From Calothrix sp. C42_A2020_038 (GTDB lineage Bacteria; Cyanobacteriota; Cyanobacteriia; Cyanobacteriales; Nostocaceae): a DNA stretch of 34,771 nt. Positions 47 to 34,212 of this stretch are shown piece after piece (positions within the stretch are counted from its first letter, which is position 1; every line of letters starts with the position of its first letter). The stretch spans positions 117,385 to 152,155 of the forward strand of contig JACYLQ010000016.1 in the NCBI GenBank assembly GCA_015272395.1, in the 5' to 3' direction. The notes beneath the pieces were generated by a model that saw only the letters and a program-made list of their open reading frames with translations, was not told the origin of the DNA and did not search any database. The translations under genes were made by a program, and so were the position numbers.

Positions 47-328
47 ATGTCTAAACAAGACAATAAAGATGCAACAGGTTTAACAACTTCTCAAAAAATA
101 GCTTCTTTAACTAAAAATAAAGGTCAATTCGGTAGTGGAGACGAACTTCGTCGATACTTTTTCGGTGATTTAGAACCAATTTCTGTTCAACCTGGAGGCG
201 CCGGGATGGTTGTAAACCTTTACAATAAAGCAAGTGACACGACTTTTGCTTATTGTGCAACATTTGACGTAGTTGTCGCAATTAAACAGGGTCGAGTTAA
301 AGCTTTTGCTCCAAGTGAAGTTAAGTAA
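47..328 (+). CDS. Hypothetical small protein (93 aa)
   Basis: I do not recognise this family. The frame opens with ATG at 47 and codes for 93 residues. The N-terminal 25 residues are polar and probably disordered (Lys, Asp, Thr, Ser rich). A compact part follows, starting near the FGSGDELRRYFFGDLEP stretch and ending in a hydrophobic, beta-looking segment (CATFDVVVAIKQGRVKAFAP). There is no signal peptide or membrane segment, so it is probably cytoplasmic. It contains a GGCGCC palindrome at 197-202, like the native genes around it, and a strong terminator follows 14 bases after the stop, so it looks like a real expressed gene. It converges on the EamA transporter gene. Only about 46 bases of upstream sequence are in the window, so any operon partner is unseen. 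Confidence 0.6.
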   Translation: MSKQDNKDATGLTTSQKIASLTKNKGQFGSGDELRRYFFGDLEPISVQPGGAGMVVNLYNKASDTTFAYCATFDVVVAIKQGRVKAFAPSEVK

Positions 329-342
329 TTTAGATTATTTAG

Positions 343-374
343 ATTCCCGACACGCGATCTTAGTTGTCGGGAAT
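343..374. terminator. Bidirectional rho-independent-type terminator
   Basis: A perfect 10-bp inverted repeat (ATTCCCGACA at 343-352, TGTCGGGAAT at 365-374) with a 12-base loop sits between two convergent genes that end at 328 and 385. TTTGTTT follows on the plus strand and an A/T-rich run on the other side. It probably stops transcription from both directions. Confidence 0.75.
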
Positions 375-384
375 TTGTTTATGT

Positions 385-1434
385 TCACATTCCTTTAAAT
401 CCGACTTCACTTTCAATTTGTCTTAATTTATCAGTAGAATTTACTTTTTCTGTTTTAATATCAAACGATTGCTTTTGCTGACTACCAATATAACTAATAA
501 CTACACCTAATAAAATTACGATGCCACCAATATACTGTGCTAAAGTCGGAACTTCTGACAAAATCAAATAAGCAGCAATCACACTAGCGATAGGGGTAAA
601 CGAGCCAACTAATGAGGCTTTTGATACGCTAGAAGCTCTCAAGCCAGCAAGCCAAAATGATTGACCAACTACTACAATGACAGGTCCATAAATCAACATC
701 CACTTCCATAAGAAAGGTGAAAGCACATCCATAAAGTGATTGTGCCCATAAACGATTAAGGCAATAAAGAAAAATATCACTGTTCCCAAGGTTGTGCGAA
801 AAACGCTATAAATTCCTAGAGGAATTTTAGATAACTTTGCCTTACCAATAATTGTTGATGTAGCCAAAGCTACAGCAGCGATTGCTGCCAAAATTTCTCC
901 ATTTCCAAAATTAAAGTAGTTATTCGCAGATGCCATACCTTGGGATGTTGATGGTAATGCAATAGTTAAAGTTACACCAATAAATGAAACAAGTGCGCCA
1001 ATTATTTCCCAAGAATTTACTCGTTCTCGCAATAACCAAATAGATAAGGCTAAAGTTAAGGGTGGTTCTAGGCGTCCAACTAAGACAACATTATTAACTT
1101 TGGTTAATGCAAGTGCCTGAAAAATTAGACCAGGAGCAACAGCACTAGCCAAAATTGCGACAATGGTTAAATTCAGCCATTGATTTTTGGAAAACTGTTG
1201 TAATTGAGTTTTTGTTAACTGGCGCCTATAAATAATTATCAGAACTGCGAGCGCGCATAAATTCCCCACAAATAAAACGTTGCAAAACGATATAGGGTTA
1301 CGACCATCCACAAAACTTTGGGTGCCGATTTCTGTAAGTTTGCGCGTGACAGAATTCGCTGCACCAAAAATGAGGACAGCGAACCATAAATAAAGTTGTC
1401 CGGGAATACGAAGTGTAGGTAAGTGGCGCAACAT
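385..1434 (-). CDS. EamA/DMT-family membrane transporter
   Basis: This 349-residue, very hydrophobic protein has about ten predicted membrane helices arranged as two halves of five, the usual layout of drug/metabolite transporter (EamA, formerly DUF6) permeases. Recognisable parts are the first-half stretch VVLVGRLEPPLTLALSIWLL (family-typical xxRLEP region after helix 3) and the second-half GSFTPIASVIAAYLILSE followed by GGIVILLGVVIS. The C-terminal 30 residues are polar and cytoplasmic. The substrate cannot be told from sequence; members export amino acids, metabolites or drugs. The ATG at 1434 gives the full first helix. It is transcribed alone, with a shared terminator downstream at 343-374 and a MITE-like hairpin element just upstream. 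Confidence 0.85.
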   Translation of the reverse strand: MLRHLPTLRIPGQLYLWFAVLIFGAANSVTRKLTEIGTQSFVDGRNPISFCNVLFVGNLCALAVLIIIYRRQLTKTQLQQFSKNQWLNLTIVAILASAVAPGLIFQALALTKVNNVVLVGRLEPPLTLALSIWLLRERVNSWEIIGALVSFIGVTLTIALPSTSQGMASANNYFNFGNGEILAAIAAVALATSTIIGKAKLSKIPLGIYSVFRTTLGTVIFFFIALIVYGHNHFMDVLSPFLWKWMLIYGPVIVVVGQSFWLAGLRASSVSKASLVGSFTPIASVIAAYLILSEVPTLAQYIGGIVILLGVVISYIGSQQKQSFDIKTEKVNSTDKLRQIESEVGFKGM

Positions 1435-1449
1435 ATCAAGCCTTGCTAA

Positions 1450-1710: not shown

Positions 1711-2586
1711 ATGATTTGTGAAGAAAGTTCAGCAATACAAACGGCAGACAACTGGCATGGCAAGCTCGATTTAGTATACGCACATCCTGACGGTGCCACA
1801 CAATTGATTTACGCTCATCATCAAGCACCACTGAAAGTGCAACGTCCGTTTTACCCGGAAGGACAAGCAGTTTGCCATAGCGTGATTTTACATACGGCTG
1901 GGGGTGTTGTTGGTGGTGATAAATTATCTTATAATCTTCAGCTTCAGCCACAATCACAAGCGTTAATTACAACAGCGGCAGCAGGGAAAATTTATCGTAG
2001 TAACGGGCGCCTAGCAATACAAAATATTGATATCAAAGTTGATACAGGTGCGACACTAGAATGGTTACCACAAGAAATAATTGTATTTAATGGCGCCATA
2101 TATCGCCAAGACATACGTATAAATTTAGCTGAAAATGCAAACTTTATAGGGTGGGAAATTACACGATTTGGACGTAGCGCGCGGGGAGAAAAGTTCTTAC
2201 AGGGTAGTTGGAAAAGTTACACAGAAATTTGGCAGCAAAATAAACCACTGTGGATAGATAGACAATTTTTACCCGGTAGTGAAGAAGTGTTTCATAGTCC
2301 CCATGCATTAAACTCAAAACCTGTTGTCGGTACTTTAGTTTTTGTCGGTCAGGCAGTATCACCAGAATTTATCGAAAAAATTCGTTCTTTGGAACAGACG
2401 CGATCTATCTCATCTCTACATTTATTTGGGGTTACTCGGTTAGAACATGGATTTTTGTGTAGATATCGTGGTAGTTCTACTTCTGAGGTGAGAAACTGGT
2501 TTACGGCAGTGTGGCAGTTATTACGACAATCATTTTTAGGGCGTTCCGACTGCATACCGCGTGTTTGGTTTTCTTTAAAGGGGTAG
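1711..2586 (+). CDS. ureD: Urease accessory protein UreD
   Basis: UreD (UreH) binds apo-urease and, with UreF and UreG, helps carry nickel and CO2 into the active site. The protein has the family hallmarks near its N terminus: WHGKLDLVYAHPDGATQL, then APLKVQRPFYPEG, then HTAGGVVGGDKL, then TTAAAGKIYRS, and later LPGSEEVFHSPHALNSKPV. Length (about 291 residues) is normal. I chose the ATG at 1711, which has GGA about seven bases upstream; an in-frame TTG at 1699 would add four residues. The stop is followed only 3 bases later by the ureA start, so the two are co-translated. GGCGCC occurs at 2006 and 2092. ureE, ureF and ureG are not in the window. Confidence 0.93.
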   Translation: MICEESSAIQTADNWHGKLDLVYAHPDGATQLIYAHHQAPLKVQRPFYPEGQAVCHSVILHTAGGVVGGDKLSYNLQLQPQSQALITTAAAGKIYRSNGRLAIQNIDIKVDTGATLEWLPQEIIVFNGAIYRQDIRINLAENANFIGWEITRFGRSARGEKFLQGSWKSYTEIWQQNKPLWIDRQFLPGSEEVFHSPHALNSKPVVGTLVFVGQAVSPEFIEKIRSLEQTRSISSLHLFGVTRLEHGFLCRYRGSSTSEVRNWFTAVWQLLRQSFLGRSDCIPRVWFSLKG

Positions 2587-2589
2587 TAA

Positions 2590-2892
2590 ATGCAGCTAAC
2601 GCCGCAGGAAAAAGACAAATTACTAATTTTTACTGCTGCTTTATTGGCAGAAAGACGTAAAAACCGAGGTTTGAAGTTAAATTATCCAGAAGCAGTTGCT
2701 TTTATTACAGCCGCAATATTAGAAGGCGCCAGAGATGGACGCACGGTTGCTGAGTTAATGAGTTTTGGCACAACCTTATTAAAGCGGGATGATGTTATGG
2801 AAGGTGTACCAGAAATGGTGCATGAAGTACAAGTAGAAGCAACCTTTCCTGATGGGACAAAGTTGGTTACGGTACATAATCCCATTCAATAG
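2590..2892 (+). CDS. ureA: Urease subunit gamma
   Basis: This is the small gamma subunit of the (alpha-beta-gamma)3 urease, which hydrolyses urea to ammonia and carbamate in the cytoplasm. It is exactly 100 residues, the canonical length, begins [20 protein letters not shown], and contains the diagnostic [23 protein letters not shown] and [22 protein letters not shown] stretches. It starts 3 bases after the ureD stop and is followed by ureB after 46 bases, so it is inside the ure operon. GGCGCC occurs at 2725. Confidence 0.97.
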
Positions 2893-3578: not shown

Positions 3579-5309
3579 ATGAGCTATCGAATGTCGCGCC
3601 GCGCGTATGCGGAAACTTTTGGTCCTACAGTTGGCGATAAAGTCCGTCTTGCCGACACTGAATTATTCATTGAAGTCGAACAAGATTTAACTATATATGG
3701 TGATGAAGTAAAGTTTGGTGGTGGTAAAGTTATTCGTGATGGCATGGGACAGGCGCCTATCTCTAACCAAGACGGCGCCGTTGATGTTGTTATTACCAAT
3801 GCTTTAATTCTTGATTGGTGGGGTATTGTTAAAGCTGATATTGGAATTAAAGACGGGAAGATATACAAAATAGGTAAAGCTGGTAATCCTTATATTCAAG
3901 ATAATGTAGATATTATTATTGGGCCGGGAACGGAAGCGATAGCAGGTGAGGGAATGATTCTCACTGCTGGTGGAATTGATACTCACATACACTTTATTTG
4001 TCCGCAGCAGATAGAAGTTGCCATAGCATCAGGTATTACAACAATGATAGGGGGTGGGACTGGGCCTGCTACGGGTACAAATGCGACTACTTGTACGCCG
4101 GGGCCTTGGAATATTTACCGGATGCTACAAGTGAGTGATGCGTTTCCAATGAATTTGGGATTTTTGGGAAAGGGCAATAGTAGTCAACCTCAAGGACTTG
4201 TTGAACAAATTGAAGCAGGTGCTATGGGGTTGAAGCTACATGAAGATTGGGGAACTACACCTGCTGCTATAGATACTTGTTTAAGCGTTGCCGATGATTA
4301 TGATGTGCAGGTGGCAATACATACTGATACTCTCAACGAAGCTGGTTTTGTTGAAAATACTATTGCCGCTTTTAAGAACCGTGTTATTCATACTTACCAT
4401 ACTGAGGGCGCCGGAGGAGGACATGCACCCGACATTATTAAAGTATGTGGGGAAGCGAATGTTCTGCCATCTTCGACTAACCCAACTCGTCCTTATACTG
4501 TAAATACTCTTGATGAACACCTTGATATGCTAATGGTGTGTCATCACCTAGATGCAGACATTCCTGAAGATGTGGCTTTTGCTGAGTCGCGTATTCGTCG
4601 CGAAACTATTGCTGCTGAGGATATTTTGCATGACTTAGGCGCCTTTAGTATGATTTCCTCTGACTCACAAGCAATGGGACGAGTTGGTGAGGTAATTATT
4701 CGCACTTGGCAAACGGGGCATAAAATGAAAGTACAGAGAGGAAACCTCACCCCCAGCCCCTCTCCTACGAGGAGAGGGGAGGAAAGAGCGGATAATTTTA
4801 GGGCTAAGAGGTATGTGGCGAAGTATACGATAAATCCAGCAACTACACATGGGATAGCTCAGTATGTGGGTTCTGTGGAGGAAGGTAAACTTGCTGATTT
4901 GTGTTTGTGGCGCCCTGGTTTTTTTGGTGTGAAGCCAGAGATGGTTATTAAGGGGGGAATGATTGCTTGGGCGCAAATGGGTGATGCGAATGCTAGTATT
5001 CCTACACCTCAACCTGTACACATGCGTCCAATGTTTGGTAGTTTTGGCGGTGCCTTGGGTAGAACTTCATTAACTTTTGTTTCCCACGAAGCTTTAAAAC
5101 GGGATATATCTAACCAATTAAAATTAAAAAAACAAGTCGTTGCTGTTTCTGGTATTCGTAATTTGAGCAAGCGGGATATGAAATTAAACGACGCAATGCC
5201 ACATATCGAAGTTGACCCAGAAACTTACGAAGTGCGCGCGGATGGTGAATTACTAACATGTGAACCTGCAACAATTTTACCTATGGCACAACGATATTTC
5301 TTGTTTTAA
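3579..5309 (+). CDS. ureC: Urease subunit alpha (with repeat-derived insertion)
   Basis: This is the catalytic urease subunit with a di-nickel centre. All key residues are visible: His136 and His138 (DTHIHF), the carbamylated Lys219 ([10 protein letters not shown]), His248 (AIHTDTLNE), His274 ([13 protein letters not shown]), Asp362 ([12 protein letters not shown]), plus flap Cys321 and catalytic His322 (MVCHHLD). The protein is 576 residues, several longer than usual. The excess lies at residues about 389-404, where the loop between KVQRG and DNFRAKRY reads [14 protein letters not shown], a translated cyanobacterial palindromic repeat. The frame is intact, so the enzyme is probably functional. 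The ATG follows AGGAG at 3568-3572. GGCGCC occurs five times inside the gene. Confidence 0.97.
4743..4782. repeat. Palindromic repeat inserted in frame inside ureC
   Basis: The core is a perfect 10-bp stem, CCCCTCTCCT at 4757-4766 and AGGAGAGGGG at 4770-4779, with a 3-base loop ACG, preceded by CCTCACCCCCAG. The same family normally lies between genes in cyanobacteria and translates as [12 protein letters not shown]. Here it is read in frame within the urease alpha subunit. Confidence 0.75.
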
Positions 5310-5501: not shown

Positions 5502-6251
5502 ATGTTAGCCAAAGAAGCCACGTATAAAGTGACCTGGGAAAAGTTACCAGACGATTTTATTTTAGACGATGAACCCGTGGACAATATTTCCCAACCTCCA
5601 CTTGCTGCAGCATTGACAGAAAGCTTGGTATTAAAACAAAAATTGGCGCCTAACGCTTTAACTACAACTAACTACGGTATTTGCGCTACCTTAAATGGAC
5701 AAACTGTGGTGAAGGCGCCTGACTGGGGTTATGTACCATCAATTAAAGTTCCCCGGTCAGAAGTAACACGCAGTTACACTCCACGACTTCAAGGGGATAT
5801 TCCCGTAATTGTCATGGAATTTATTTCAGCAACCGAAGGCACAGAGTATTCTAGCAAACCAACCTACCCTCCTGGTAAATGGTTCTTTTACGAAAAAATC
5901 TTAGAAGTACCCAACTACGCAATTTTTGAACCAGATATGGGGGTGCTAGAGGTATATAAATTAGATAGTTTAAAAAATTATCAACTACAAACACCTGATG
6001 GGAATAACCGATATTGGATAACTGAGATGAACCTGTTTTTAGGTGTATGGCAAGGTACTCGTGAAAACAGAACAGGTTATTGGTTGCGCTGGTGGGATGA
6101 AAATGGTGAATTATTGCTGTGGGGTTCAGAGTTGGCAGATAAAGAACGTCAACGTGCCGATGAAGAACGTCAACGTGCTGATGAAGAACGTCAACGAGTG
6201 GAAAGACTTGCACAACAACTAAGAGCAGCAGGTATTGAACCTGAGTTGTAA
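5502..6251 (+). CDS. Uma2-family protein (DUF820 nuclease fold) with heptad-repeat tail
   Basis: The protein (249 residues) matches the cyanobacterial Uma2 (DUF820, PD-(D/E)xK restriction-endonuclease-like fold) family: APDWGYVPSIKVPRSEVTRSYTP, then IPVIVMEFISATEGTEYSSKP, then PGKWFFYEKILEVPNYAIFEP, followed by YWITEMNLFLGVWQGTR. The conserved D..W / E(F)IS block is where the fold's acidic residues are expected. No role is established for most of these very numerous proteins. The C terminus carries three near-identical 7-residue units (DKERQRA, DEERQRA, DEERQRV) that predict a short coiled coil, ending QQLRAAGIEPEL, a tail common in this family. It appears monocistronic, about 190 bases after ureC. 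Confidence 0.8.
   Translation: MLAKEATYKVTWEKLPDDFILDDEPVDNISQPPLAAALTESLVLKQKLAPNALTTTNYGICATLNGQTVVKAPDWGYVPSIKVPRSEVTRSYTPRLQGDIPVIVMEFISATEGTEYSSKPTYPPGKWFFYEKILEVPNYAIFEPDMGVLEVYKLDSLKNYQLQTPDGNNRYWITEMNLFLGVWQGTRENRTGYWLRWWDENGELLLWGSELADKERQRADEERQRADEERQRVERLAQQLRAAGIEPEL
6138..6200 (+). repeat. Three tandem 21-bp repeats in the Uma2 gene
   Basis: Units 6138-6158, 6159-6179 and 6180-6200 share GA(T)(A/G)AAGAACGTCAACG and differ at only a few positions. Each codes for one coiled-coil heptad, so unit number could change by slippage without a frameshift. Confidence 0.85.
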
Positions 6252-6605: not shown

Positions 6606-6759
6606 AGGCGCCAGATCGTATATACAGTAACTTGATAATTGATTCCTGACAAAGAATCATTCTTAAGCATGAGGTAAAATCTATGAACTATACCAAAATA
6701 TAGATATTAATAAAACTTATTTCTATCTTTCGGCTATTAAATCAGTAATTTCTAAACAC

Positions 6760-7851
6760 ATGGTATATAATAACACTCAGCCTGACAAAATCCTAGTTGT
6801 TGATGATTCTCCCGATAATGTGTTTCTGATTGGCACCATTTTGGAAGAAGATGGTTATATTGTTAGCACCGCAGAAAATGGTGCGACTGCACTAGCAAAA
6901 ATCGAAGAATCTAGTTTTGATTTAGTACTGCTTGATTTGATGATGCCTGGGATGGATGGCTATGAGGTTACTCGTCGTATCCGTGCAAATAAGGGTATGT
7001 CGTTCATGCCAATTCTTTTAATTACGGCACATGACTCACCAAATGTTGCACAGGGATTGGATTTAGGAGCAGATGATTTTATTCGTAAGCCTGTAACTGT
7101 CGATGAGTTACTCGCGCGTGTGCGTTCTTTGTTACGTCTAAAACACAGTATTGATGAACGGGATGAAATCGCACGACAACGGGAGGATTTTGTCTCGCGT
7201 CTTACTCATGACTTGCGTACACCCTTGGTTGCTGCGGAACGAATGCTTGAACTATTATTACAAGGCGCCTTGGGTGAATTATCACCGCAAATGAATGAAA
7301 TAATTACCATTATGGGGCGCAGCAATACTAACTTGCTTGCGATGGTAAATACTTTACTGGAAGTTTATCGGTTTGATGCGGGACGTAAAGCACTAGCTTT
7401 TCTACCAGTAGATATAAAAACGCTATTACAAGAAGTTATAGCTGAGTTAACACCAATTGCCCAACCAAAAGGACTAACGATTAATTTGGAAGTTGGAGAA
7501 TTGAGTCAAACCACTGTAATGGGGGATCGTTTAGAACTTCATCGTCTTTTGACCAACTTAGTCGGTAACGCGATTAAATTCACTGATAAAGGTGGAGTAA
7601 AGATTCGTCTGAATGAAGAGAGTGATGATGTTATCAGAATTGAAATTGCTGACACAGGCACAGGCATTCCACCCGAAGAACAAGTAACTTTATTTGAACG
7701 ATTTCGCCAAGGAAGTCACAAACGTTCTGGTAGTGGTTTAGGTCTATATCTTTCACGTCGTATTGTTGAAGCGCATCAAGGTAGTATCCATGTCAGTTCA
7801 GAACTGGGCAAGGGAAGTGTTTTTACTATTTATTTGCCAACTAAACAGTAA
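6760..7851 (+). CDS. Receiver-histidine kinase protein (REC-HisKA-HATPase)
   Basis: This 363-residue soluble two-component protein begins with a receiver domain (about residues 10-128: DD at 15-16, phospho-acceptor Asp59 in LLDLMMPGMDGYEV, Lys110 in IRKP). Next is a HisKA dimerisation domain with phospho-His150 in SRLTHDLRTPL, then an HATPase_c domain with N-box Asn270 (NLVGNAIKF), G1 DTGTGIP at 298-304, F-box LFERFRQG and G2 GSGLGL at 324-329. There is no membrane segment or separate sensor domain, so its input is probably phosphotransfer or a partner protein. Such single-chain REC-kinases are common in cyanobacteria. No cognate regulator is adjacent. The start ATG at 6760 lacks a good Shine-Dalgarno sequence. 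GGCGCC occurs at 7264. Confidence 0.92.
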   Translation: MVYNNTQPDKILVVDDSPDNVFLIGTILEEDGYIVSTAENGATALAKIEESSFDLVLLDLMMPGMDGYEVTRRIRANKGMSFMPILLITAHDSPNVAQGLDLGADDFIRKPVTVDELLARVRSLLRLKHSIDERDEIARQREDFVSRLTHDLRTPLVAAERMLELLLQGALGELSPQMNEIITIMGRSNTNLLAMVNTLLEVYRFDAGRKALAFLPVDIKTLLQEVIAELTPIAQPKGLTINLEVGELSQTTVMGDRLELHRLLTNLVGNAIKFTDKGGVKIRLNEESDDVIRIEIADTGTGIPPEEQVTLFERFRQGSHKRSGSGLGLYLSRRIVEAHQGSIHVSSELGKGSVFTIYLPTKQ

Positions 7852-8132
7852 TTTAGTACTTTAGTAATACTTGAGAGTTTTTGGCAACTTAATACTAAGT
7901 AAATTTACGTAGATATCAAGCTATTATTCAGGATAAGGTTCGAGAGTTAGAAGAGATATAGGAGAAATAATCGGCGCCTACAAATTAATTTAACGTGAGT
8001 TCGACGGATAGGAAAGCGCAAAAAGCTGGCTATATATGAATTTGCTTAACTGGGCATCACAAAAGCGATGCCTGCGGCGGGCTTCGCCTACGCTACAATT
8101 AATTGAGAATAGGTAAAAAGTGACAAAAAAAC
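7852..8132. other. Intergenic region, mostly featureless
   Basis: No gene is seen between the histidine kinase and the IS982 fragment. It contains one GGCGCC (7973) and the short cyanobacterial repeat described separately at 8065-8093. The remainder shows no convincing promoter or open frame. Confidence 0.5.
8065..8093. repeat. Short G+C-rich cyanobacterial interspersed repeat
   Basis: The 29 bases from GCGATGCC to GCCTACGC (containing TGCGGCGGGCTTCG) stand out as G+C-rich in an A+T-rich spacer and can form a small GGCG/CGCC hairpin. The wording is typical of a short interspersed repeat family seen in many Nostocales spacers (recalled, not searched). Confidence 0.6.
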
Positions 8133-8173
8133 GCCGAAACTAAAAATAATATAAGAAAAATCAAGGTTTCGGC
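8133..8173 (+). promoter_or_regulatory. Stem-loop directly before the transposase start
   Basis: A perfect 8-bp inverted repeat (GCCGAAAC at 8133-8140, GTTTCGGC at 8166-8173) with a 25-base loop ends one base before the transposase ATG at 8175. In insertion sequences such a hairpin can hide the ribosome-binding site in read-through transcripts; that role is inferred. Confidence 0.45.
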
Positions 8174-8174
8174 T

Positions 8175-11003: not shown

Positions 11004-11025
11004 CACTGGTTTCCTTAATTTAGAC

Positions 11026-11072
11026 TAGAATACGTGGCGTCGTGTATTGTCAACATTATGACGGCGCCACGT
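11026..11072 (-). promoter_or_regulatory. Dyad with candidate RM-operon promoter
   Basis: An inverted repeat of 12-base arms (11032-11043 ACGTGGCGTCGT, 11061-11072 ACGGCGCCACGT; one mismatch) lies between the molybdoenzyme stop and the nuclease start. On the minus strand a TTGACA falls in its loop and a TATTCT follows 15 bases later at its far arm. It could be an operator-promoter for the RM operon, a terminator of the upstream gene, or both. One arm carries GGCGCC (11063-11068). Confidence 0.4.
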
Positions 11073-12553: not shown

Positions 12554-12738
12554 ATGTTTTTCGCTCCTGACTAACTCAAGCTTGAGATTGCATTAAAAAA
12601 CAAGTAATAAATTTAACCATTATGCTTTTGGGTCTGGCAATAATCACTTAGACTACTAGACATAGGTTAGCCTTGTTTTTTAGCAGAAGCAAACCGCAAT
12701 TATTCGACAATGTAAACCAAGTACATCTTTCAACAGTG

Positions 12739-23996: not shown

Positions 23997-24671
23997 ATGC
24001 TTGTATCACAATCGGGAAACTACCCCATTAGTAGCTTGGGTCGATTAGAAGTAAACTCCATCAGCAGTCCTAGCAACATCGTCCCGATGGTGGTAGAACA
24101 ATCAGGAGTTGGAGAACGAGCCTTTGATATTTACTCACGTTTACTGCGTGAGCGAATTATATTCTTAGGAACACCTGTAGATGATACAGTCGCAAACTCA
24201 ATCATCGCTCAACTGCTTTTTCTAGATGCTGAAGATTCTGAGAAAGATATTCAGCTTTACATCAATTCTCCTGGCGGATCAGTTACAGCAGGAATGGCAA
24301 TTTATGATACAATCCAGCAAATTCGCCCTGATGTTGTTACTATATGTTTTGGATTAGCCGCGAGTATGGGAGCATTTTTATTAGCAGCAGGCGCCGCTGG
24401 TAAACGTATGTCTCTACCGGATTCCCGGATAATGATTCACCAACCTTTAGGCGGCGCACAGGGACAAGCTGTTGATATCGAGATACAAGCCAAAGAAATT
24501 CTTTATCATAAAGCTAAGTTGAATCAGTTGTTGGCACAGCACACTGGTCAACCACTAGAGAGAATTGAAGCCGATACAGAGCGCGACTTTTTTATGTCAG
24601 CTCTTGAGGCAAAAAATTATGGGTTGATTGATCAGGTCATCTCCAAGCAAAATCTTCCATCCAAGGCGTGA
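23997..24671 (+). CDS. clpP: ATP-dependent Clp protease proteolytic subunit
   Basis: ClpP is the tetradecameric serine protease core that degrades proteins fed by ClpX or ClpC. The catalytic triad is visible: Ser123 in [11 protein letters not shown], His148 in [10 protein letters not shown] and Asp197 in DTERDFFMS. At 224 residues it has an N-terminal extension of about 30 residues before [18 protein letters not shown], probably a propeptide that is removed by processing. It is 33 bases upstream of clpX, so the pair forms an operon; this copy is therefore most likely the ClpX partner. GGCGCC occurs at 24390. Confidence 0.97.
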
Positions 24672-24704: not shown

Positions 24705-26048
24705 ATGTCTAAGTACGACTCCCATTTAAAATGTTCGTTTTGTGGCAAGTCTCAAGAGCAGGTGCGTAAGCTAATCGCTGGTCCGGGAGTCTACATCTGC
24801 GATGAATGCGTAGACTTGTGCAATGAAATACTAGATGAGGAGTTGCTCGACACAAACGGTGCTGCGGCTTCCCAACCTGCTCCAAGGTCTGAACAGCCAC
24901 AAAAACGCCGCACCCGTTCCAGCAATCTCTCGTTTAATCAAATACCTAAACCACGAGAGATAAAGAAGTATCTTGACGAGCATGTTATCGGTCAAGACGA
25001 AGCCAAAAAAGTGCTATCAGTCGCTGTTTACAACCACTATAAACGACTGTCGATTGTCCAATCCAAAGGAAGTGGCAAAACTTCTCCTGATGATGCCGTC
25101 GAGTTACAAAAGTCTAATATTTTATTGATTGGTCCAACTGGCTGCGGTAAAACACTTTTAGCTCAAACGCTTGCTAAAATTCTTGATGTACCCTTCGCTG
25201 TAGCAGACGCAACAACATTGACCGAAGCAGGCTATGTCGGTGAAGATGTAGAAAACATTTTGCTGCGACTTCTACAGGTAGCAGACCTTGATGTGGAAGA
25301 AGCGCAACGCGGTATTATTTACATTGATGAAATTGATAAAATAGCTCGTAAGAGTGAAAATCCATCAATAACTCGTGATGTTTCTGGCGAAGGTGTACAG
25401 CAAGCTCTTCTAAAGATGCTCGAAGGCACTGTTGCGAATGTACCTCCCCAAGGTGGTCGAAAGCATCCCTATCAGGATTGTATTCAAATTGATACAAGTA
25501 ACATCTTGTTTATTTGTGGTGGTGCCTTTGTTGGGTTAGAAAAAGTTGTAGAGCAGAGAATAGGTAAAAAGTCAATAGGTTTTGTACAACCTGGTGAAGG
25601 ACAATCAAAGGAAAAGCGTATTGCCGATACGCTACACCATTTGGAACCAGATGATTTAGTCAAGTTTGGAATGATACCCGAATTTATTGGACGGGTACCA
25701 ATGGTGGCCGTGGTTGACCCACTAGACGAAGAAGCTTTGATGGCAATTTTGACGCAGCCCAGAAGTGCATTGGTCAAGCAATATCAAAAACTGCTCAAAA
25801 TGGACAGTGTGCAGCTTGAATTTAAACCAGATGCACTACGTGCTATCGCTCAAGAAGCTTATCGTCGTAAAACAGGCGCCCGTGCATTACGAGGTATTGT
25901 TGAGGAGTTAATGTTGGATGTAATGTACGAAATGCCTTCACGTAAAGACGTAGGTCGTTGTACAGTTACCCGAGAGATGGTGGAAAAACGGTCAACAGCC
26001 GAATTAATAATGCATCCGTCTTCATTACCAAAACCAGAGTCGGCATAG
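24705..26048 (+). CDS. clpX: Clp protease ATP-binding subunit ClpX
   Basis: ClpX is the AAA+ unfoldase that delivers substrates to ClpP. The 447-residue protein has the N-terminal zinc-binding domain with Cys10, Cys13, Cys32 and Cys35, Walker A GPTGCGKT (143-150), Walker [11 protein letters not shown] (from 204), the pore loop AGYVGED, and sensor/C-terminal features ([12 protein letters not shown] with the ClpP-interacting loop IGF just before, and [11 protein letters not shown]). The start ATG follows GAGG about 8 bases upstream. It is the last gene of the clpP-clpX operon. GGCGCC occurs at 25875. Confidence 0.98.
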
Positions 26049-26394
26049 TAGGGTATGTGGCGCCACCAATAAATTCACACCGAATTATCAACGGCGGGGT
26101 AGTTCCTAAATTTTATTTATGGGGGTAAGCCGGGGCGAGATTTTAATCGCAGTCTTGATGGTAAAATTAAAATTAGGGTAAACGAAACTCATGCAGTGAG
26201 TTGGAACCCCCCGGATTTATCCGTGGGGTAGTTCAAACCTGACTTTAAGCGTAGACTTTAGAAGTTCAGAAGAGTTAAGAGACGTTAGAATAGTTTTGAT
26301 TACTGAGCTGACTTTAAAGTTGGTACGTGACACTAGAATAATCCCAATCAGCCAGCTAATTTTTTAGTCGCGTCACACACCCTACGTTTAGATT
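26049..26394. other. Intergenic region with decayed ORF and hairpin
   Basis: Between 26103 and 26231 one plus-strand frame stays open with a peptide containing YGGKPGRDFNRSLDGKIKIR and NETHAVSWNPPDLSVG before a stop, and a strong hairpin (CCCCCCGGAT TT ATCCGTGGGG, about 26207-26228) overlaps its end. The combination of a short open tail plus hairpin is reminiscent of the 3' end of a tnpB gene of IS200/IS605 elements, but the match is weak. One GGCGCC is at 26059. The rest (26232-26394) shows nothing definite. Confidence 0.3.
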
Positions 26395-27282
26395 ATGTCC
26401 TACATTAATGTACGTGGTGTTGATCATTATTATGAATGGATAAAGCAACCACCGGAGAAAAAACCCATAATGGTTTTTATTCATGGTTGGGCTGGTTCAA
26501 GTCGTTACTGGCGAAGTACTGCACAAGCTTTGTCAGAAAAATTTGATTGTTTGCTTTATGATATGCGTGGGTTTGGACGTTCCAAAGGTAAACCCAGTAC
26601 TTTAGAGGCAAGTGAAGCTGTTGCTGAGTCAAGGTCGATAGAGCAAGAAACTATAGCAATTCGAGAATTAAGCTACGAATTGAATGAGTACGCTTATGAT
26701 TTAGCTGTGTTATTAGACCAGCTGCAACTCCAAAAAGTTTATATAAATGCTCACTCTATGGGTGCCTCAATAGCTACGTTGTTTCTTAACTGCTATCCAC
26801 ACAAAGTTGAAAAAGCCATTTTAACATGTAGCGGTGTATTCGAGTACGATGAAAAAGCATTTGCAGCATTCCACAAATTTGGCGCCTACGTAGTTAAATT
26901 TCGGCCAAGATGGTTAAGAAAAATACCATTTATTGACCAGATTTTCATGGCACGTTTTTTACACCGCTCAATCCCAGCATCCGAACGCCAAGCATTTTTA
27001 GAAGATTTTTTAGTAGCAGATTATGAAGCAGCACTGGGAACAATTTTTACTTCTGTAAGCAAATATCAAGCAGAAGTCATGCCAGGAGAATTTGAAAAAT
27101 TAACTCTTCCAACACTTTTAATTTCAGGGGAATATGACAAAATTATTCCTGCTGATTTGGGGCGTAAGGCAGCAGCACTAACAGATAAAGTCCAGCTTGT
27201 AGTCATGAAAAACACAGCCCACTTTCCAATGTTGGAGGATGAAGAAACTTATTTGCAGGTTGTACAAGAATTTTTAAAGTGA
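26395..27282 (+). CDS. Alpha/beta-hydrolase fold protein
   Basis: The 295-residue protein has the full alpha/beta-hydrolase layout: oxyanion-loop HGWAGSSRYW (30-39), YDMRGFGRSKG, nucleophile Ser121 in NAHSMGAS, acid Asp248 in ISGEYDKIIP and His276 in NTAHFPMLED. The region between strands 6 and 7 (residues about 150-225) is a helical cap rich in aromatic and basic residues. There is no signal peptide. The substrate cannot be predicted; esterase, lipase and C-C hydrolase members look alike. It appears monocistronic. GGCGCC occurs at 26881. Confidence 0.88.
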   Translation: MSYINVRGVDHYYEWIKQPPEKKPIMVFIHGWAGSSRYWRSTAQALSEKFDCLLYDMRGFGRSKGKPSTLEASEAVAESRSIEQETIAIRELSYELNEYAYDLAVLLDQLQLQKVYINAHSMGASIATLFLNCYPHKVEKAILTCSGVFEYDEKAFAAFHKFGAYVVKFRPRWLRKIPFIDQIFMARFLHRSIPASERQAFLEDFLVADYEAALGTIFTSVSKYQAEVMPGEFEKLTLPTLLISGEYDKIIPADLGRKAAALTDKVQLVVMKNTAHFPMLEDEETYLQVVQEFLK

Positions 27283-27451: not shown

Positions 27452-28444
27452 TTATCCCAAACCTAATTCCCGTCGCAGCAAGCTAATTGATTTTTCACCA
27501 ATATAATTATCGCTACGAATGATTTTAGGCGGACGAATAATATCATCTACAACTACTTGCACTGCGCTTTGCACTGCTGTAAAACTTGCTTGGTCGCTAC
27601 AGAAAATCATGTGCGCGCGCTTGACTATTGCATGGAGTTTATATATGTCTTTTGGCTGTGAGGTCATTACTAAAAGTTCGTCACCTCGAATACCGTGAAT
27701 GATAACTTCAGTTGCACGTAGAATACCTGAACTAACGCTAACAATTCCAATACAGCTATCCGTTGGCAAACTTCTAACAATGTTAAGCTCTTTAGCATAA
27801 TCATGAATATCAAGCGGAATTACACGCACGGATTTGGGAGCAGCAATAGATTCGACATCAGCAATAAAATACCGACTAGTAACAACTGTTGCACTAGAAG
27901 TTTGTTCGAGTACTGACTCCAATTCTTCTGTTGCCACTAGCTGTACAGGTATTTTTAATGCTTGTTCAAGTTCACCTGCCATCAATTCACCGGCGCCAAT
28001 ATCTTGCCTAGGAACCGCTACTAATACACGGGCACTACAACGTAACCTCCAATCAATTTCAGCCAAAAATATTTCGCGCGCTTGGGAAAGACTACAACCT
28101 TGGGAAAGCAAATCATCGAGTGCTTGTTGAACAACTTTGTAGGCTTGTGGATACTGCTCAAGAATTGGAGAACGCAATCTGCTTCCTCCTTCATGTCCTT
28201 GAGCGCGCACGTAAATTCCGGAACCAGCAAGACTCTCAACAAAACCGTCTTCTTCAAGCTGGCGGTATACTTTGCTAATCGTATTACGATGTAAACCAGT
28301 TTGCATAGCAAGAGCGCGTGTGCTTGGCAACTTGTAACCAGGTGGATACTGCCGAGATGCAATTGCAAACCGAATTTGGTTAAATAGCTGGTTTGAGGCG
28401 GGAATTTCACTATCGGGTTGAATGCGGAATTGAATCATTTCCAT
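27452..28444 (-). CDS. GntR-family transcriptional regulator
   Basis: The protein (about 330 residues) starts with a GntR winged-helix domain (residues about 8-75: MIQFRIQPDSEIPASNQLFN, then PPGYKLPSTRALAMQTGLHR, NTISKVYRQLEEDGFVES and GSGIYVRAQG). The remaining 250 residues form a ligand-binding or oligomerisation domain that I do not match to the classical FadR, HutC or MocR types; the pattern is conserved among cyanobacterial homologues as I recall them. I chose the ATG at 28444 because AGGAG lies just upstream; the second ATG at 28438 is also possible, while the longer frame from 28495 has no ribosome-binding site. It is divergent from the dienelactone hydrolase gene, which makes it a candidate regulator of that gene and of itself. 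GGCGCC occurs at 27992. Confidence 0.88.
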   Translation of the reverse strand: MEMIQFRIQPDSEIPASNQLFNQIRFAIASRQYPPGYKLPSTRALAMQTGLHRNTISKVYRQLEEDGFVESLAGSGIYVRAQGHEGGSRLRSPILEQYPQAYKVVQQALDDLLSQGCSLSQAREIFLAEIDWRLRCSARVLVAVPRQDIGAGELMAGELEQALKIPVQLVATEELESVLEQTSSATVVTSRYFIADVESIAAPKSVRVIPLDIHDYAKELNIVRSLPTDSCIGIVSVSSGILRATEVIIHGIRGDELLVMTSQPKDIYKLHAIVKRAHMIFCSDQASFTAVQSAVQVVVDDIIRPPKIIRSDNYIGEKSISLLRRELGLG

Positions 28445-29511: not shown

Positions 29512-30411
29512 ATGAATTCTGAAACCAAATCTCAAAAAGCTGATTCATCATTTACGATGGATGATTTCGCGAAGGCTCTCGATCAGCACGATTACCAATT
29601 TCAAAAAGGACAAGTTGTAAATGGTAAAGTGTTTCAAATCGACCATGATGGCGCCTATGTCGATATTGGCGGTAAAGCCAGTGCGTTTTTACCTCGTGAT
29701 GAAGCTTCTTTGAGAAATATCACTAATTTGTCAGAGGTGTTACCACTAGATGAAAGATTAGATTTTCTTATTATTCGCGAACAGGATGCTGAAGGTCAAG
29801 TCACCCTTTCTCGGCGCCAGTTAGAAATTCGCCATATCTGGGAACGAGTTAACCAGATGAAAGAAAACAACCAAAGTGTAGAAGCACGTGTTGTCGGCAC
29901 TAATAAAGGTGGTATTAACGTCGATGTTCTAGGTATACGTGGATTTATTCCACGTTCACATTTAGTTGAACGCGATAATCTCGACGCACTTAAAGGACAA
30001 ACTCTCACAGTCGGTTTCTTGGAAGTTGAAGCAAGCAGTAAACGTCTGATACTATCACAACGCTTAGTAACTCGTTCTGCCAACTTTAGCACACTCTCTA
30101 TTGGTCAACTTGTAGAGGGGAAAGTAACTGGAATAAAACCATTTGGTGTATTTGTAGAACTAAATGGTGTTGGTGCTTTGCTTCACATTAAGCAAGTGAC
30201 TCAAAAATTTATTGATAACCTCGAAAAAGTTTTTCAAATCGGTCAGTCAATTAAAGCTGTAATTATTGACATTGATGAACCTAAAGGTCGAGTTGCACTC
30301 TCTACAAGAGTTTTAGAAAACTTCCCTGGAGAAATCCTCGAAAACATGGAAGAAGTTATGGCTTTTGCCGAAGCACGAGCGCAAAAATCTAAAAATCAAA
30401 ACATCGAATAA
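29512..30411 (+). CDS. Short ribosomal protein S1 paralogue
   Basis: The 299-residue protein has three S1 RNA-binding domains (about residues 32-101, 118-182 and 197-265): GQVVNGKVFQIDHDGAYVDI, then VEARVVGTNKGGINVDVLGI and GQLVEGKVTGIKPFGVFVEL. Bacterial S1 usually has four to six domains; cyanobacteria have 3-domain S1 forms and often a second short copy of about 300 residues, which this fits (often annotated rpsA or rps1B). It binds mRNA and may help the 30S subunit. It has a strong terminator just downstream and appears monocistronic. GGCGCC occurs at 29650 and 29813. Confidence 0.88.
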   Translation: MNSETKSQKADSSFTMDDFAKALDQHDYQFQKGQVVNGKVFQIDHDGAYVDIGGKASAFLPRDEASLRNITNLSEVLPLDERLDFLIIREQDAEGQVTLSRRQLEIRHIWERVNQMKENNQSVEARVVGTNKGGINVDVLGIRGFIPRSHLVERDNLDALKGQTLTVGFLEVEASSKRLILSQRLVTRSANFSTLSIGQLVEGKVTGIKPFGVFVELNGVGALLHIKQVTQKFIDNLEKVFQIGQSIKAVIIDIDEPKGRVALSTRVLENFPGEILENMEEVMAFAEARAQKSKNQNIE

Positions 30412-30937: not shown

Positions 30938-31840
30938 TCAAACAGTTTGCACTACTTGATTCGATTGTTCATATAAAATCTCTTTAGATGCAATCGTGAA
31001 GTCTTCGCCAACCCATACTGATAAGGTTTGAATTACAACACCATCAGAGATATTGACTATTGAGAAGTTCCGTTGTTTTCCAGTATTTGTGTCGATAACT
31101 CGCGGTACAGCAGCTGCGTTTAAGTAAATTATTCCTTCCGGGCTTCTGAAAATACGCTTACGAATGACCTTTTTGGTATGTCGTAATGAGTGGTGCATGT
31201 GCCCAAAAGTAACTAGAGGTATTGTTTTTCCTGCTGTAATAGCTTGGGATATTACTTCAGCAAAATCTGGGTCGCCAAAGTCTCCACCAACTGGATGCCA
31301 GTCTTTTCCACAAGGGTCTTCAGGTCTATCACCTAATCCTGACGGTCCATTATGCCCAACAAAAATGATTGTCTTATAATCTGCACTTTTAACCGACTCA
31401 AAAATCCGAGATGCTGATTCTTCCAGAGTCATTACATTATAACGTTGCTTGCAGATATCAGCAAATTTCATGTCTGGTCCACCCCAGCTAAAGGGGCGCC
31501 CACCAACAACAGTTAAATTAAACTGCGGAAAATCGAGTTTGCTGTATCCGACATGAGTCTCACCCAATAAATCAAGTTGTTCCTGAACCCAATCTTCTTT
31601 GGTGCGGTCGTAAGGACATTTTTTACGTCCCCATTCAGTTGCAGAATACCACGCATCATGGTTACCCATTACCACTGCTTTGGGGATGTCAAGAGATGCT
31701 ACTCGCCGTACTACATCTACTGACTCGTTGCCAAAATCCCCAACAAACAGCACTAAGTCCACTCCCAGCGTATGAAGCGCTATTTGATCTTCCTCTTCCC
31801 ACTGGTCGTGAACATCTCCAACAACAGCAATTTTTATCAT
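30938..31840 (-). CDS. Metallophosphoesterase (TIGR04168-like)
   Basis: The 300-residue protein contains the calcineurin-like phosphoesterase metal motifs in order: GDVHDQW (Asp9, His11), VGDFGNE, MGNHDAWY, then VGHNGPSGLG and GHMHHSLR near the C terminus. The spacing and the RPFSWGGPD insert resemble a cyanobacterial/plant metallophosphoesterase family (TIGR04168). The substrate is unknown, probably a phosphoester or nucleotide. There is no signal peptide. A stem-loop lies upstream (31856-31883). GGCGCC occurs at 31495. Confidence 0.87.
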   Translation of the reverse strand: MIKIAVVGDVHDQWEEEDQIALHTLGVDLVLFVGDFGNESVDVVRRVASLDIPKAVVMGNHDAWYSATEWGRKKCPYDRTKEDWVQEQLDLLGETHVGYSKLDFPQFNLTVVGGRPFSWGGPDMKFADICKQRYNVMTLEESASRIFESVKSADYKTIIFVGHNGPSGLGDRPEDPCGKDWHPVGGDFGDPDFAEVISQAITAGKTIPLVTFGHMHHSLRHTKKVIRKRIFRSPEGIIYLNAAAVPRVIDTNTGKQRNFSIVNISDGVVIQTLSVWVGEDFTIASKEILYEQSNQVVQTV

Positions 31841-31855
31841 CTTTGAGTTTTTAGT

Positions 31856-31956: not shown

Positions 31957-32098
31957 TAGTGTGACAAGAATAATACCAACCTTGCAATCACTAATAAGTC
32001 TTATAACCTCCTCAATATACTATAAGAAGGAGGAGAGGGAAGATATTTGGTGTCAAAGCAAGAATTCAGACTTTTAGAAAAATAGGTAACACCATACT

Positions 32099-33073
32099 GT
32101 GTTTACAACTGCACGAACTGTACTTGAAAAGACCCAACCGGGTGCATCACCATTGGATTTATTTGCGGCGATTGAGAGTTTGAAAAAATCACTCAATGCT
32201 GTGATTTTGGCGCATTACTATCAAGAGCCTGATATTCAGGACATAGCAGATTATATTGGGGACTCGCTGCAATTAGCCAGAGCCGCAGCGCAAACGGATG
32301 CCGAGGTTATAGTTTTTGCTGGTGTCCATTTTATGGCAGAGACTGCGAAGATTCTCAATCCTGATAAATTAGTGTTACTACCAGATTTGAATGCTGGATG
32401 TTCGCTTGCTGATACTTGTCCTGCTGAGGAGTTTGCTCTGTTTAAACGTGCGCATCCGGAACATTTGGTAATTTCCTACATCAACTGCTCCGCCGAAATT
32501 AAGGCAATGAGCGATATCATTTGTACTAGTTCAAATGCTGTTAAGATAATTCAGCAAATACCAGAAGAGCAACCAATAATATTTACCCCTGACCGAAACT
32601 TAGGGCGGTATGTAATGCGGCAAACAGGGCGTGATATGGTGTTATGGCAAGGAAGTTGTATTGTGCATGAAACGTTCTCAGAGAAAAAGATTGTACAGCT
32701 AAAGATTACACATCCTAAAGCAGAAACAATCGCGCATCCAGAATGTGAAGAGTCGGTTTTGCGTCATGCCAATTATATTGGTTCAACAGCGGCTTTACTC
32801 AAGTACTGTCAGGAAAGTTCCTCGCAAGAGTTTATTGTTGCCACTGAACCAGGAATTATTCACCAAATGCAAAAAGCGGCGCCACATAAAACTTTTATCC
32901 CGGCACCACCAGAGAATAACTGTAACTGCAACGAATGTCCGTTTATGCGCTTGAATACCCTGGAAAAACTTTATTTAGCAATGAAAAATCAGGCGCCGGA
33001 GATTACTATGGACGAAGAAATAAGGGTTAAAGCTTGGCGCCCAATTCAACGCATGTTAGAAATAAGTGCTTAG
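32099..33073 (+). CDS. nadA: Quinolinate synthase A
   Basis: NadA condenses iminoaspartate with dihydroxyacetone phosphate to quinolinate, for de novo NAD synthesis, using an oxygen-sensitive [4Fe-4S] cluster. The 324-residue protein has [20 protein letters not shown] at the N terminus, then [28 protein letters not shown] (Cys101), [21 protein letters not shown] (Cys187) and [10 protein letters not shown] (Cys275, 277, 280). Cys101, Cys187 and one of the last three are the expected cluster ligands from family spacing. It starts with GTG at 32099 ([13 protein letters not shown]). It is monocistronic and followed by a hairpin terminator. GGCGCC occurs at 32878, 32992 and 33036. Confidence 0.96.
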
Positions 33074-33086
33074 GTAAAGTTTGTAA

Positions 33087-33111
33087 AGACGCGACAAATA
33101 AACTCGCGTCT
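33087..33111 (+). terminator. Hairpin after nadA
   Basis: AGACGCGA (33087-33094) and TCGCGTCT (33104-33111) form an 8-bp stem with flanking GTA/TAC pairs, 14 bases after the stop. The wording AGACGCGA...TCGCGTCTCTAC is also a frequent cyanobacterial intergenic repeat. Confidence 0.55.
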
Positions 33112-33273
33112 CTACAAAACAACTTTAAATCAAGTTAGATAGACAAGTCATAAACAATCTCTTGTCACCACTGTTCGCTTCCTCCAGATTAGACACGCAG
33201 CACAACAGACATTGGGTGTGGATGCATATGATTAAGCTGTATTTCTGAGTTTGTTATAATTATCTACAATTTA

Positions 33274-34212
33274 TTAGTTATTCTTTTCTGCTTCTTTCTG
33301 TGCGGTTTCACTATATTGACGATATAGCTTAGTGCGAATTTGCGCTTCCTTATACCGACTATGGTCAGGCGCCACTTTAGCCATTAAATCTGACGCACGT
33401 TGCCAACTCGCTGCGTTCTCAAGCCATTGAGTTGAATTACGAGCTTTTTTGCCATTTGTCGTTGCTTGATTTGCAATTCTCACAGCATCTACAAAATAAT
33501 CTTCAGTCAATTTAGAGTTATTATCATTAATAGCTATAGGAGATTGTTTTTGTTTAGATTCCTCATTTATAGAGGATTCTAAAGTATTAGTTACTGGCAA
33601 TAAAAGTTTTGAATCGGATGCGAGCATGGGCAATTTGAGTTTATCACCTAGTAAACTATAGAAAGCCAAACCAGTAATTCCAAACAATACACATATACTA
33701 ACACCTAATAACAACCATCCCCAAGCTGAATTTTTGTGTTGATTTTTTTTTATAATCACTATCGAACTTGATTGTGGTGTTTTGGGTAAACTTATTTTTA
33801 CTGGTTCTGATTTGCGTTCTTGCAAGTCTTTAATCAACTGTTGAAAAACATTAGGTTTGTCTAAAGTCAATTCCTCCGACCATAATAATTGATTATCTCC
33901 TTCTTTGCGGCTAATTTCTTCTAGCCAAAGTAATTGTTGCTCACGAACAATACGGGTGTTGATGTTAATTCTATAAATATTTCGTGGCGCAATCGATTCG
34001 AGTATTTCACGAATTGTACTGACCAAGGTTGATTTTTCTAGCTTATCTTCGGTACGTGCTTCACAAAGTAGTTGCAGTACACCATCAGCAAACATTGCCC
34101 TAGTCCTAACACCTGAAGAAGACAACCTTTGATTCAATAGCTGAATAATCGCAGCAACACTACCTTGCTGTGCTTGCCAAAAGATATCGTTAATCCTGTC
34201 TACCATCACCAT
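33274..34212 (-). CDS. Single-pass membrane protein with C-terminal helical segment, unknown function
   Basis: I do not recognise a named domain. The 312-residue protein has a soluble N-terminal domain (about 1-140; INDIFWQAQQGSVAAIIQLL, LQLLCEARTEDKLEKSTLVS), one membrane helix (about 170-195: WGWLLLGVSICVLFGITGLA), a polar linker and a C-terminal helical segment (SWQRASDLMAKVAPDHSRYK, EAQIRTKLYRQYSETAQKEA). The last part resembles one unit of the helical repeats at the C terminus of the pseudo-orthocaspase. The ATG at 34206 (MVDRIND) is an alternative to 34212. It is downstream of the rRNA operon end on the same strand, but a strong terminator intervenes. Confidence 0.75.
   Translation of the reverse strand: MVMVDRINDIFWQAQQGSVAAIIQLLNQRLSSSGVRTRAMFADGVLQLLCEARTEDKLEKSTLVSTIREILESIAPRNIYRININTRIVREQQLLWLEEISRKEGDNQLLWSEELTLDKPNVFQQLIKDLQERKSEPVKISLPKTPQSSSIVIIKKNQHKNSAWGWLLLGVSICVLFGITGLAFYSLLGDKLKLPMLASDSKLLLPVTNTLESSINEESKQKQSPIAINDNNSKLTEDYFVDAVRIANQATTNGKKARNSTQWLENAASWQRASDLMAKVAPDHSRYKEAQIRTKLYRQYSETAQKEAEKNN

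Follow-up and report, generated by a model that had tools for sequence, protein, structure and literature searches.

GGCGCC as the genus-wide highly iterated palindrome of Calothrix sp. C42_A2020_038 and its relatives, with an endonuclease-free GRCGYC-family methyltransferase as the candidate enzyme

The highly iterated palindrome HIP1 (GCGATCGC) of cyanobacteria is a GC-rich word linked to solitary methyltransferases of CGATCG and GATC. In the present study, we analysed a stretch of 34,771 bases of Calothrix sp. C42_A2020_038 (contig JACYLQ010000016.1; G+C 40.1%), hereafter the window, in which another palindrome, GGCGCC, is frequent. Elhai (2015; PMC4390886) described GGCGCC as the alternate HIP of Calothrix PCC 7103 and of 19 kb of Calothrix D253, and reported low HIP1, two GrCGyC methyltransferases and loss of the CGATCG m5C enzyme in PCC 7103; GrCGyC methyltransferases with or without an endonuclease in other strains were also named. 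The traits given there for alternate HIPs are an extreme excess of a GC-rich palindrome at approximately 1000–2000/Mb, low or near-absent HIP1, a methyltransferase covering the word, and methylation of the word. The model, built on three odd single strains, invokes G(meC)-dependent mismatch repair working as a ratchet and proposes a second methyltransferase copy as possibly critical, and the paper states the methylated base as known for no enzyme of GrCGyC specificity. Exceptional HIPs were held to be sporadic, not in clades and non-persistent, and their sporadic occurrence led to the view that only HIP1 is selected (PMC4390886). The GGCGCC phenomenon itself is already published for one strain, PCC 7103, and no second paper joining GGCGCC and Calothrix was found among titles and abstract openings of the open-licence PMC literature. 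New here are the sharing of the word across the genus, its conservation at synonymous positions, and a candidate enzyme without endonuclease at a shared locus.

The window holds 38 GGCGCC sites by exact matching, compared to 2.3 expected from base composition (zero-order) and 3.2 under a first-order Markov model. A reading made from the sequence alone (the sequence-only reading) had listed 38 sites and estimated an expectation of about two; every listed coordinate was exact and the window contained no further site. Its count of a single HIP1 copy was also reproduced, and HIP1 is thus not a high-frequency word here. Among 28 open reading frames (ORFs) chosen from the ORF list of the window, 33 of the 38 sites fell inside ORFs, divided 13/11/9 over the frames, and 5 fell outside, in agreement with the earlier statement that sites occur in all frames and in spacers. 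The sites, all exact matches given without strand, are as follows.

197..202, GGCGCC site
1221..1226, GGCGCC site
2006..2011, GGCGCC site
2092..2097, GGCGCC site
2725..2730, GGCGCC site
3752..3757, GGCGCC site
3774..3779, GGCGCC site
4407..4412, GGCGCC site
4638..4643, GGCGCC site
4909..4914, GGCGCC site
5645..5650, GGCGCC site
5714..5719, GGCGCC site
6607..6612, GGCGCC site
7264..7269, GGCGCC site
7973..7978, GGCGCC site
11063..11068, GGCGCC site
12974..12979, GGCGCC site
13403..13408, GGCGCC site
14004..14009, GGCGCC site
14402..14407, GGCGCC site
16280..16285, GGCGCC site
16513..16518, GGCGCC site
17166..17171, GGCGCC site
17878..17883, GGCGCC site
20500..20505, GGCGCC site
22165..22170, GGCGCC site
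24390..24395, GGCGCC site
25875..25880, GGCGCC site
26059..26064, GGCGCC site
26881..26886, GGCGCC site
27992..27997, GGCGCC site
29650..29655, GGCGCC site
29813..29818, GGCGCC site
31495..31500, GGCGCC site
32878..32883, GGCGCC site
32992..32997, GGCGCC site
33036..33041, GGCGCC site
33368..33373, GGCGCC site, last of the 38

The family set comprised 217 genomes (sizes as rounded), seven of the window's genus and 210 others. The genus genomes are G000 (the window's own genome, 6.53 Mb), G060 (Dulcicalothrix desertica PCC 7102), G061 (Calothrix sp. PCC 7103), G062 (Calothrix sp. HK-06/NIES-2101), G063 (NIES-4105), G064 and G065 (PCC 7716). All seven carried GGCGCC at 7,475–20,380 copies per genome, or 1,144–1,711/Mb, a density that fits the range given for alternate HIPs, whereas the other 210 genomes had at most 111/Mb, with a median of 3.7. 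The lowest count was that of G000 (7,475 copies, 1,144/Mb), which held 2 copies of the reversed control CCGCGG. HIP1 was found 31–163 times per genus genome (3.6–23/Mb; 147 copies in the 6.53 Mb of G000). Among the 210 others, G182 alone matched this low level (30 copies in 3.2 Mb, 9/Mb; 88% complete), the next lowest being G194 (535 in 10.7 Mb), G191 (574 in 7.0 Mb) and G184 (990 in 9.5 Mb). With an extreme genome-wide excess of a GC-rich palindrome and low HIP1, GGCGCC is the alternate highly iterated palindrome of the genus, replacing HIP1, as the sequence-only reading had proposed from the window.

In a 435-kb sample of G000, GGCGCC occurred 499 times, compared to 29.3 expected under an order-2 Markov model (ratio 17) and 215.6 under an order-4 model. 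Of all hexamers expected at least 5 times under order 2, it came first, followed by CGCGCG at 4.4-fold, and CCGCGG (0/29.6, observed/expected), GGGCCC (0/17.3), CCCGGG (0/17.5) and CGGCCG (0/14.0) showed no excess; the Markov comparison suggested earlier as a check thus points to GGCGCC in particular and not to GC-rich hexamers in general. Another check suggested there, extension of the flanks towards an 8-base unit, showed variable flanking bases with only an outer G avoided; the repeated unit is therefore the hexamer (6 bp), and an 8-bp unit was ruled out. GGCGCC and HIP1 are both GC-rich palindromes that occur roughly once per kb, in every frame, with linked solitary methyltransferases; GGCGCC differs in being another word, of 6 bp instead of 8, with no GATC core. 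Spacing between sites had coefficients of variation (CVs) of 0.81–1.08 in ten samples, where random placement gives approximately 1.0; nine were within about two standard deviations (SD) of random, and the 180-kb sample of G062 was the sole clear case of more even spacing (0.81 vs. 0.99 ± 0.05). Regular spacing was accordingly dropped as a general property. In the G060 sample, site density was 1,976/Mb in coding DNA and 1,157/Mb outside it.

Conservation of sites was examined in blocks of 180–200 kb at one locus of all seven genomes, of which 102–151 kb were aligned to G060 and 77–138 kb in other genome pairs; by these alignments, five genomes are 4.7–6.0% apart, with G063 at 13% and G000 at 18%. 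Of the GGCGCC sites of G060, 170/231 (0.74) were unchanged in G063 and 132/241 (0.55) in G000; the corresponding values for other all-GC hexamers were 259/609 (0.43) and 195/611 (0.32). A codon test compared the third base of GGC, GCC, CGC and GCG, with the amino acid unchanged, inside and outside sites. Conservation inside/outside was 0.81/0.55, 0.89/0.50, 0.92/0.66 and 0.82/0.62 against G063 (p from 0.012 to 1e-14), 0.64/0.40, 0.73/0.37, 0.78/0.51 and 0.64/0.35 against G000 (p from 0.0016 to 8e-11), and 0.86/0.77, 0.97/0.84, 0.89/0.80 and 0.80/0.77 against G061 (p = 0.024, 3e-5, 0.17 and 0.74). A matched test over all codons gave 0.92 on-site and 0.57 off-site from G063 to G060, 0.86 and 0.44 from G000 to G063, and 0.90 and 0.80 from G060 to G061. 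Overall, synonymous third bases were kept at 0.85–0.92 on-site versus 0.56–0.57 off-site between G060 and G063, and at 0.74–0.86 versus 0.44 between G063 and G000. Protein constraint does not account for the effect, which is present in three reading frames; the conservation means that sites either resist loss or are restored repeatedly. The comparison with near relatives called for by the sequence-only reading therefore found sites shared and synonymous positions kept beyond off-site codons. Compared to the PCC 7103 case of Elhai (2015), the word, the loss of HIP1 and the genus are all the same, PCC 7103 being G061; one strain and 19 kb of D253, taken as sporadic, are here replaced by seven of seven genomes with synonymous conservation.

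The restriction–modification systems BsaHI, HgiDI, HgiGI and HindVP have GRCGYC as their site, and M.BsaHI methylates its central C (PMC2413257). The candidate gene in G000 is listed below.

G000:C32:50744-51724, outside the window, L004-type methyltransferase gene (loci L004 and L051), profile match to PF00145

The L004-type protein contains the C5 methylase domain of that family (PF00145, E 1.8e-66). Nine PF00145 matches are present in G000; one is a fragment, and two belong to the same gene. Clustering of the main PF00145 and PF01555 hits of the genus, in a table that leaves out the L008-type enzyme of G064, a truncated second L004-type copy of G062 and weak PF01555 matches, gave 29 clusters of cytosine-capable methyltransferases. 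Three of them, L004, L007 and L070 (N4 type), are present in all seven genomes, and only the L004 family has a known specificity covering GGCGCC, the specificities of the other two being assumed. L004-type enzymes of the genus are 80–90% identical to the G000 copy, and 55 of the 210 other family genomes carry one at 55–73% identity. In the recognition loop, all 20 aligned enzymes have an Arg 11 residues before a TI pair, then Gly or Ala, a residue placed nine upstream by the count of the published description (PMC2413257) and ten by ours. The loop is conserved between the seven genus enzymes and 13 outside relatives, and no narrowing within the genus was evident in the alignment; the predicted specificity is therefore GRCGYC and not GGCGCC alone.

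The outside relatives share 63–72% identity, and 15 of 20 fetched neighbourhoods adjoin one gene cluster, broken in some, which is RE_HindVP by Pfam (E 1.9e-123) and a type II endonuclease by PADLOC. RE_HindVP (PF09519) was found, whole or in part, in 43 of the 217 family genomes, including 39 of the 55 carriers outside the genus, and the profile search found it in none of the seven genus genomes. Among the 80 best relative loci from 84,980 species, 49 had a match, sometimes a piece; these counts of presence include fragments and broken genes, and absence at such loci may reflect contig ends. The genus methyltransferase thus belongs to the BsaHI/HgiDI/HgiGI/HindVP family by neighbourhood and target-recognition loop, and the genus differs in having no HindVP-type endonuclease and in GGCGCC being enriched instead of avoided. 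The enzyme is probably the leftover of a defence system. The solitary methyltransferase suggested by the sequence-only reading is therefore supported in that all seven genomes carry a GRCGYC-family enzyme without the family endonuclease, whereas its predicted target is broader than the GGCGCC named there. In the G000 sample, the three other GRCGYC words are depleted while GGCGCC is enriched (GACGTC 3 vs. 26.5 expected; GGCGTC 9.5 vs. 27.9; GGCGCC 499 vs. 29.3).

In six of the seven genomes, the gene lies at one syntenic locus with no HindVP gene, between an S-layer-homology-like ORF (starting MVSN.TTFSDIQNHW or similar) and an ORF starting MAIEVDYRF or MTIEVDYRF, the genus neighbour genes being read as ORFs. 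G060 and G061 have another C5 methyltransferase (L005-type, 661 aa) approximately 3 kb away, which in G000 is on another contig. A phylogeny of 86 proteins placed all seven genus copies in a single clade (100/100), within which the six chromosomal copies also grouped (93/60); the additional copies in PCC 7103, NIES-4105, G064 and PCC 7716 branched outside the genus clade. G000 and G060 have a single L004-type copy at E ≤ 1e-60, so a second copy is not needed. Elhai (2015) regarded the second copy as possibly critical and the methylated base as unknown; here, two genomes have one copy each and the base is known for M.BsaHI.

Possession of an L004-type enzyme in the absence of the endonuclease is not enough to generate the word, because such carriers elsewhere show no excess. 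Outside the genus, genomes with both methyltransferase and RE_HindVP had a median of 0.71 GGCGCC/Mb (n = 39), compared to 5.07 for genomes with neither gene (n = 151; p = 2e-6); the medians of the CCGCGG control were 3.5, 9.6 and 5.4/Mb for both genes, neither and methyltransferase only, respectively, and part of the GGCGCC depletion may thus be compositional, since CCGCGG shows the same weaker trend. Among the 80 best relatives, only the five genus loci had an excess of GGCGCC (16–41 sites, 1.0–2.2 expected), the other 75 having 0–3 sites (0.1–11.4 expected). What sets the genus apart from other carriers is its loss of HIP1. An L161-type methyltransferase was present in 11 of 13 other genomes sampled, at 41–68% identity to L161 (the two left out are L162 of G092, with no frame at the centre, and the G194 copy, with no locus), and from this ubiquity we infer that it is the CGATCG enzyme. 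No genus relative exceeded 36% full-length identity, a 173-residue piece of L002/L011 reaching 43%, in a check covering the nine PF00145 matches of G000 and most, not all, of those of the other six genomes. G182 keeps an L161-type enzyme though its HIP1 is nearly gone.

Taking these results together, we assign a probability of about 0.6 to the explanation that GGCGCC was built up as the HIP of the genus via the orphaned GRCGYC methyltransferase, with methylation-linked raising of the word. The genus ancestor would have lost the usual methyltransferase of CGATCG, the HIP1 core, and kept a BsaHI/HindVP-type GRCGYC m5C methyltransferase without its endonuclease. The orphaned enzyme may then have taken over the supply of G(m5C) marks, modifying GG(m5C)GCC, and a methylation-linked process may have raised GGCGCC to approximately 1.1–1.7/kb and slowed its loss, most likely a repair bias of the type proposed by Elhai, or else weak selection in favour of methylated GC marks that serve in repair. 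A drift of the R/Y positions toward G/C would fit the depletion of the remaining three GRCGYC words. The methylation, the order of events and the repair bias are the parts that we infer. Very short patch repair by Dcm/Vsr is a methylation-linked repair able to enrich a methylated word, and resembles the proposed process in that respect. No PF03852 (Vsr) match was found in the seven genus genomes at E ≤ 0.1, the E. coli control being detected, so the classic short-patch route is unlikely and Vsr-type repair was rejected.

Recent turnover was reconstructed by parsimony, with CpG-rich hexamers as controls. On the five terminal branches, 522 GGCGCC sites were kept, 55 lost and 2 gained (controls 5922/639/562), with losses of 2/127 in G060, 16/139 in G061, 11/88 in G062, 18/142 in G064 and 8/81 in G065; no gene difference was found that accounts for the low loss in G060 compared to the four close species. 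The G063 branch kept 69, lost 7 and gained 3 (controls 573/185/274), and the stem lost 1 and gained 2 (controls 213 and 216). Single transitions to GGTGCC or GGCACC made up 36 of the 55 losses. An earlier, stricter count by trinucleotide contexts, with few opportunities, gave 2 gains (0.54 expected) and 31 losses (27.5 expected), 21 of the latter to GGCACC or GGTGCC (11.0 expected). Central C-to-T changes, which deamination of m5C would produce, were more frequent at sites (37/1126) than in other GCG contexts (80/4589; p = 0.002), and off-site GGCG was equally high (14/408), making the excess a weak methylation footprint. In four genus samples, the one-step neighbours GGCGTC (0.20–0.44 of expectation), AGCGCC (0.40–0.44) and GGCGCA (0.26–0.43) were scarce, and GGCGAC (0.81–1.13) and GGTGCC (1.02–1.77) were not; the scarcity of several such words limits new gains. 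The sequence-only reading had called the sites maintained, which is supported by synonymous conservation and qualified by recent branches showing mostly losses.

Several observations weigh against the orphaned-methyltransferase explanation. The specificity of the L004-type enzyme is predicted from family membership, and methylation of GGCGCC is likewise a prediction. The only place where the enzyme was detected in G062 is a 16.8-kb contig (L054/L326) that also carries a DnaB-like ORF, other mobile-looking ORFs and the truncated second copy, and no further copy was detected at E ≤ 1e-60. The enzyme tree pairs G000 with G063, whereas by genome distance G063 is closer to the remaining five, possibly because genes were exchanged within the genus. 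The 16 of 55 outside carriers without RE_HindVP have a median of 8.5 GGCGCC/Mb, compared to 5.07 in non-carriers (p = 0.35). Against the close G061, only two of the four codon classes are significant, and on the terminal branches losses far outnumber gains at about the control rate of loss in four of five genomes; a ratchet should show gains, few are present, and a strong ongoing ratchet is thus not seen. In addition, a weak PF01555 match of approximately 450 aa is found in all seven genus genomes.

These points bear differently on the rival explanations. Direct selection of the sites, as a repair strand signal or for chromosome organisation or recombination, with the methyltransferase secondary or unneeded, is in our judgement unlikely, though worth serious attention: slow purging of mildly harmful losses would leave sites conserved at depth while recent loss stays close to normal, as observed (G063 branch 69 kept/7 lost vs. 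573/185; tips 522/55 vs. 5922/639), the G062 sample is evener than random (CV 0.81), and statistical analyses supported selection on HIP1 according to the Background of a 2019 paper. The nine other samples within about two SD of random spacing speak against it, and it leaves unexplained both the coincidence of word and methyltransferase family and the depletion of the three GRCGYC words. A single build-up of the word, by a process that acted in the genus ancestor and has since stopped, leaving a slowly decaying relic, would accommodate the 55 losses versus 2 gains, as well as the 36 losses to GGTGCC/GGCACC and the standing of GGTGCC at 1.02–1.77 of expectation; we consider this improbable given that losses on the deeper G063 branch run at about one third of the control rate, that the G060 tip lost 2 of 127, and that identity with G000 is 0.55 versus 0.32 for other all-GC hexamers across 18% divergence.

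A similarly low weight is given to another methyltransferase, or none, being responsible and the L004-type gene being a bystander. Endonuclease-free carriers elsewhere without extra GGCGCC favour this, as does the presence of other candidates, L008-type in six of the seven genus genomes and L007, L070 and the weak PF01555 match in all seven. L008-type (30 of 217 genomes at E ≤ 1e-60) was not found in G062 and is present in 24 other genomes without excess, and L007 has close relatives in many family genomes without GGCGCC excess; both were rejected. L070 and the weak PF01555 match were searched within the genus only. Codon, protein or base-composition bias has a next to negligible probability: 291 of the 352 sites of the G060 sample are in coding DNA, but all three frames and spacers hold sites, off-site codons are far less conserved against G063 and G000, and CCGCGG, of equal composition, is absent against 29.6 expected. 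Bias was thus ruled out, in accordance with the sequence-only reading.

CGCGCG looks like a second, weaker HIP-like word decaying in the five-species clade. It was found 249 times versus 56.4 expected in the G000 sample (4.4-fold), 179 times versus 43.2 in 200 kb of G063 (4.1-fold) and at approximately 2-fold in G060 and G061; outside the genus, two pooled samples had 0 versus 6.9 and 2 versus 13.5 expected. Its synonymous conservation from G000 to G063 was 0.86 versus 0.50, and 0.55 versus 0.45 in reverse; the sites of G063 were under-kept in G060 (0.48 vs. 0.61), and on the five tips 22 were lost and 2 gained. The string CGCGCG is absent from the main text of Elhai (2015; PMC4390886). We suggest, as a tentative idea held at somewhat less than even odds, that the word of a HIP system can be exchanged for another, and the replacement retained while a genus diversifies, through domestication of the methyltransferase left by a lost restriction–modification system, CGCGCG being also an ancestral HIP that was kept in two lineages and is decaying in the clade of five. 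If this is true, CGCGCG and GGCGCC offer a natural series in which HIP words are gained, maintained and lost. An alternative word shared genus-wide contrasts with the 2015 view of exceptional HIPs as sporadic, and the 2015 argument becomes testable with this shared word, a candidate enzyme identified at a constant locus and sister species available in culture collections. The genus could thus serve to separate repair bias from selection as the cause of HIP words in cyanobacteria.

Other features of the window and of G000 were also recorded. A XamI-type restriction–modification pair (PF09572 endonuclease and Eco57I-like methylase) lies at 8503–11006 of the window, within its longest GGCGCC-free gap (7973–11063), the length of which is not itself unusual. 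GTCGAC, which we take to be the XamI site, had 0 occurrences versus 40.3 expected in the 435-kb G000 sample. In the same sample, TTCGAA (1/161.7, observed/expected), GCATGC (0/60.1), GTGCAC (0/61.7), ACGCGT (1/60.6) and TGCGCA (6/132.5) were nearly absent; these palindromes suggest several past or present restriction systems in G000. In the frame of the urease alpha subunit (window 3579–5309), a stretch near codon 400 resembles an in-frame insertion of a dispersed repeat, and window 12673–14712 encodes a caspase-domain (Peptidase_C14) protein with a proline/threonine-rich linker.

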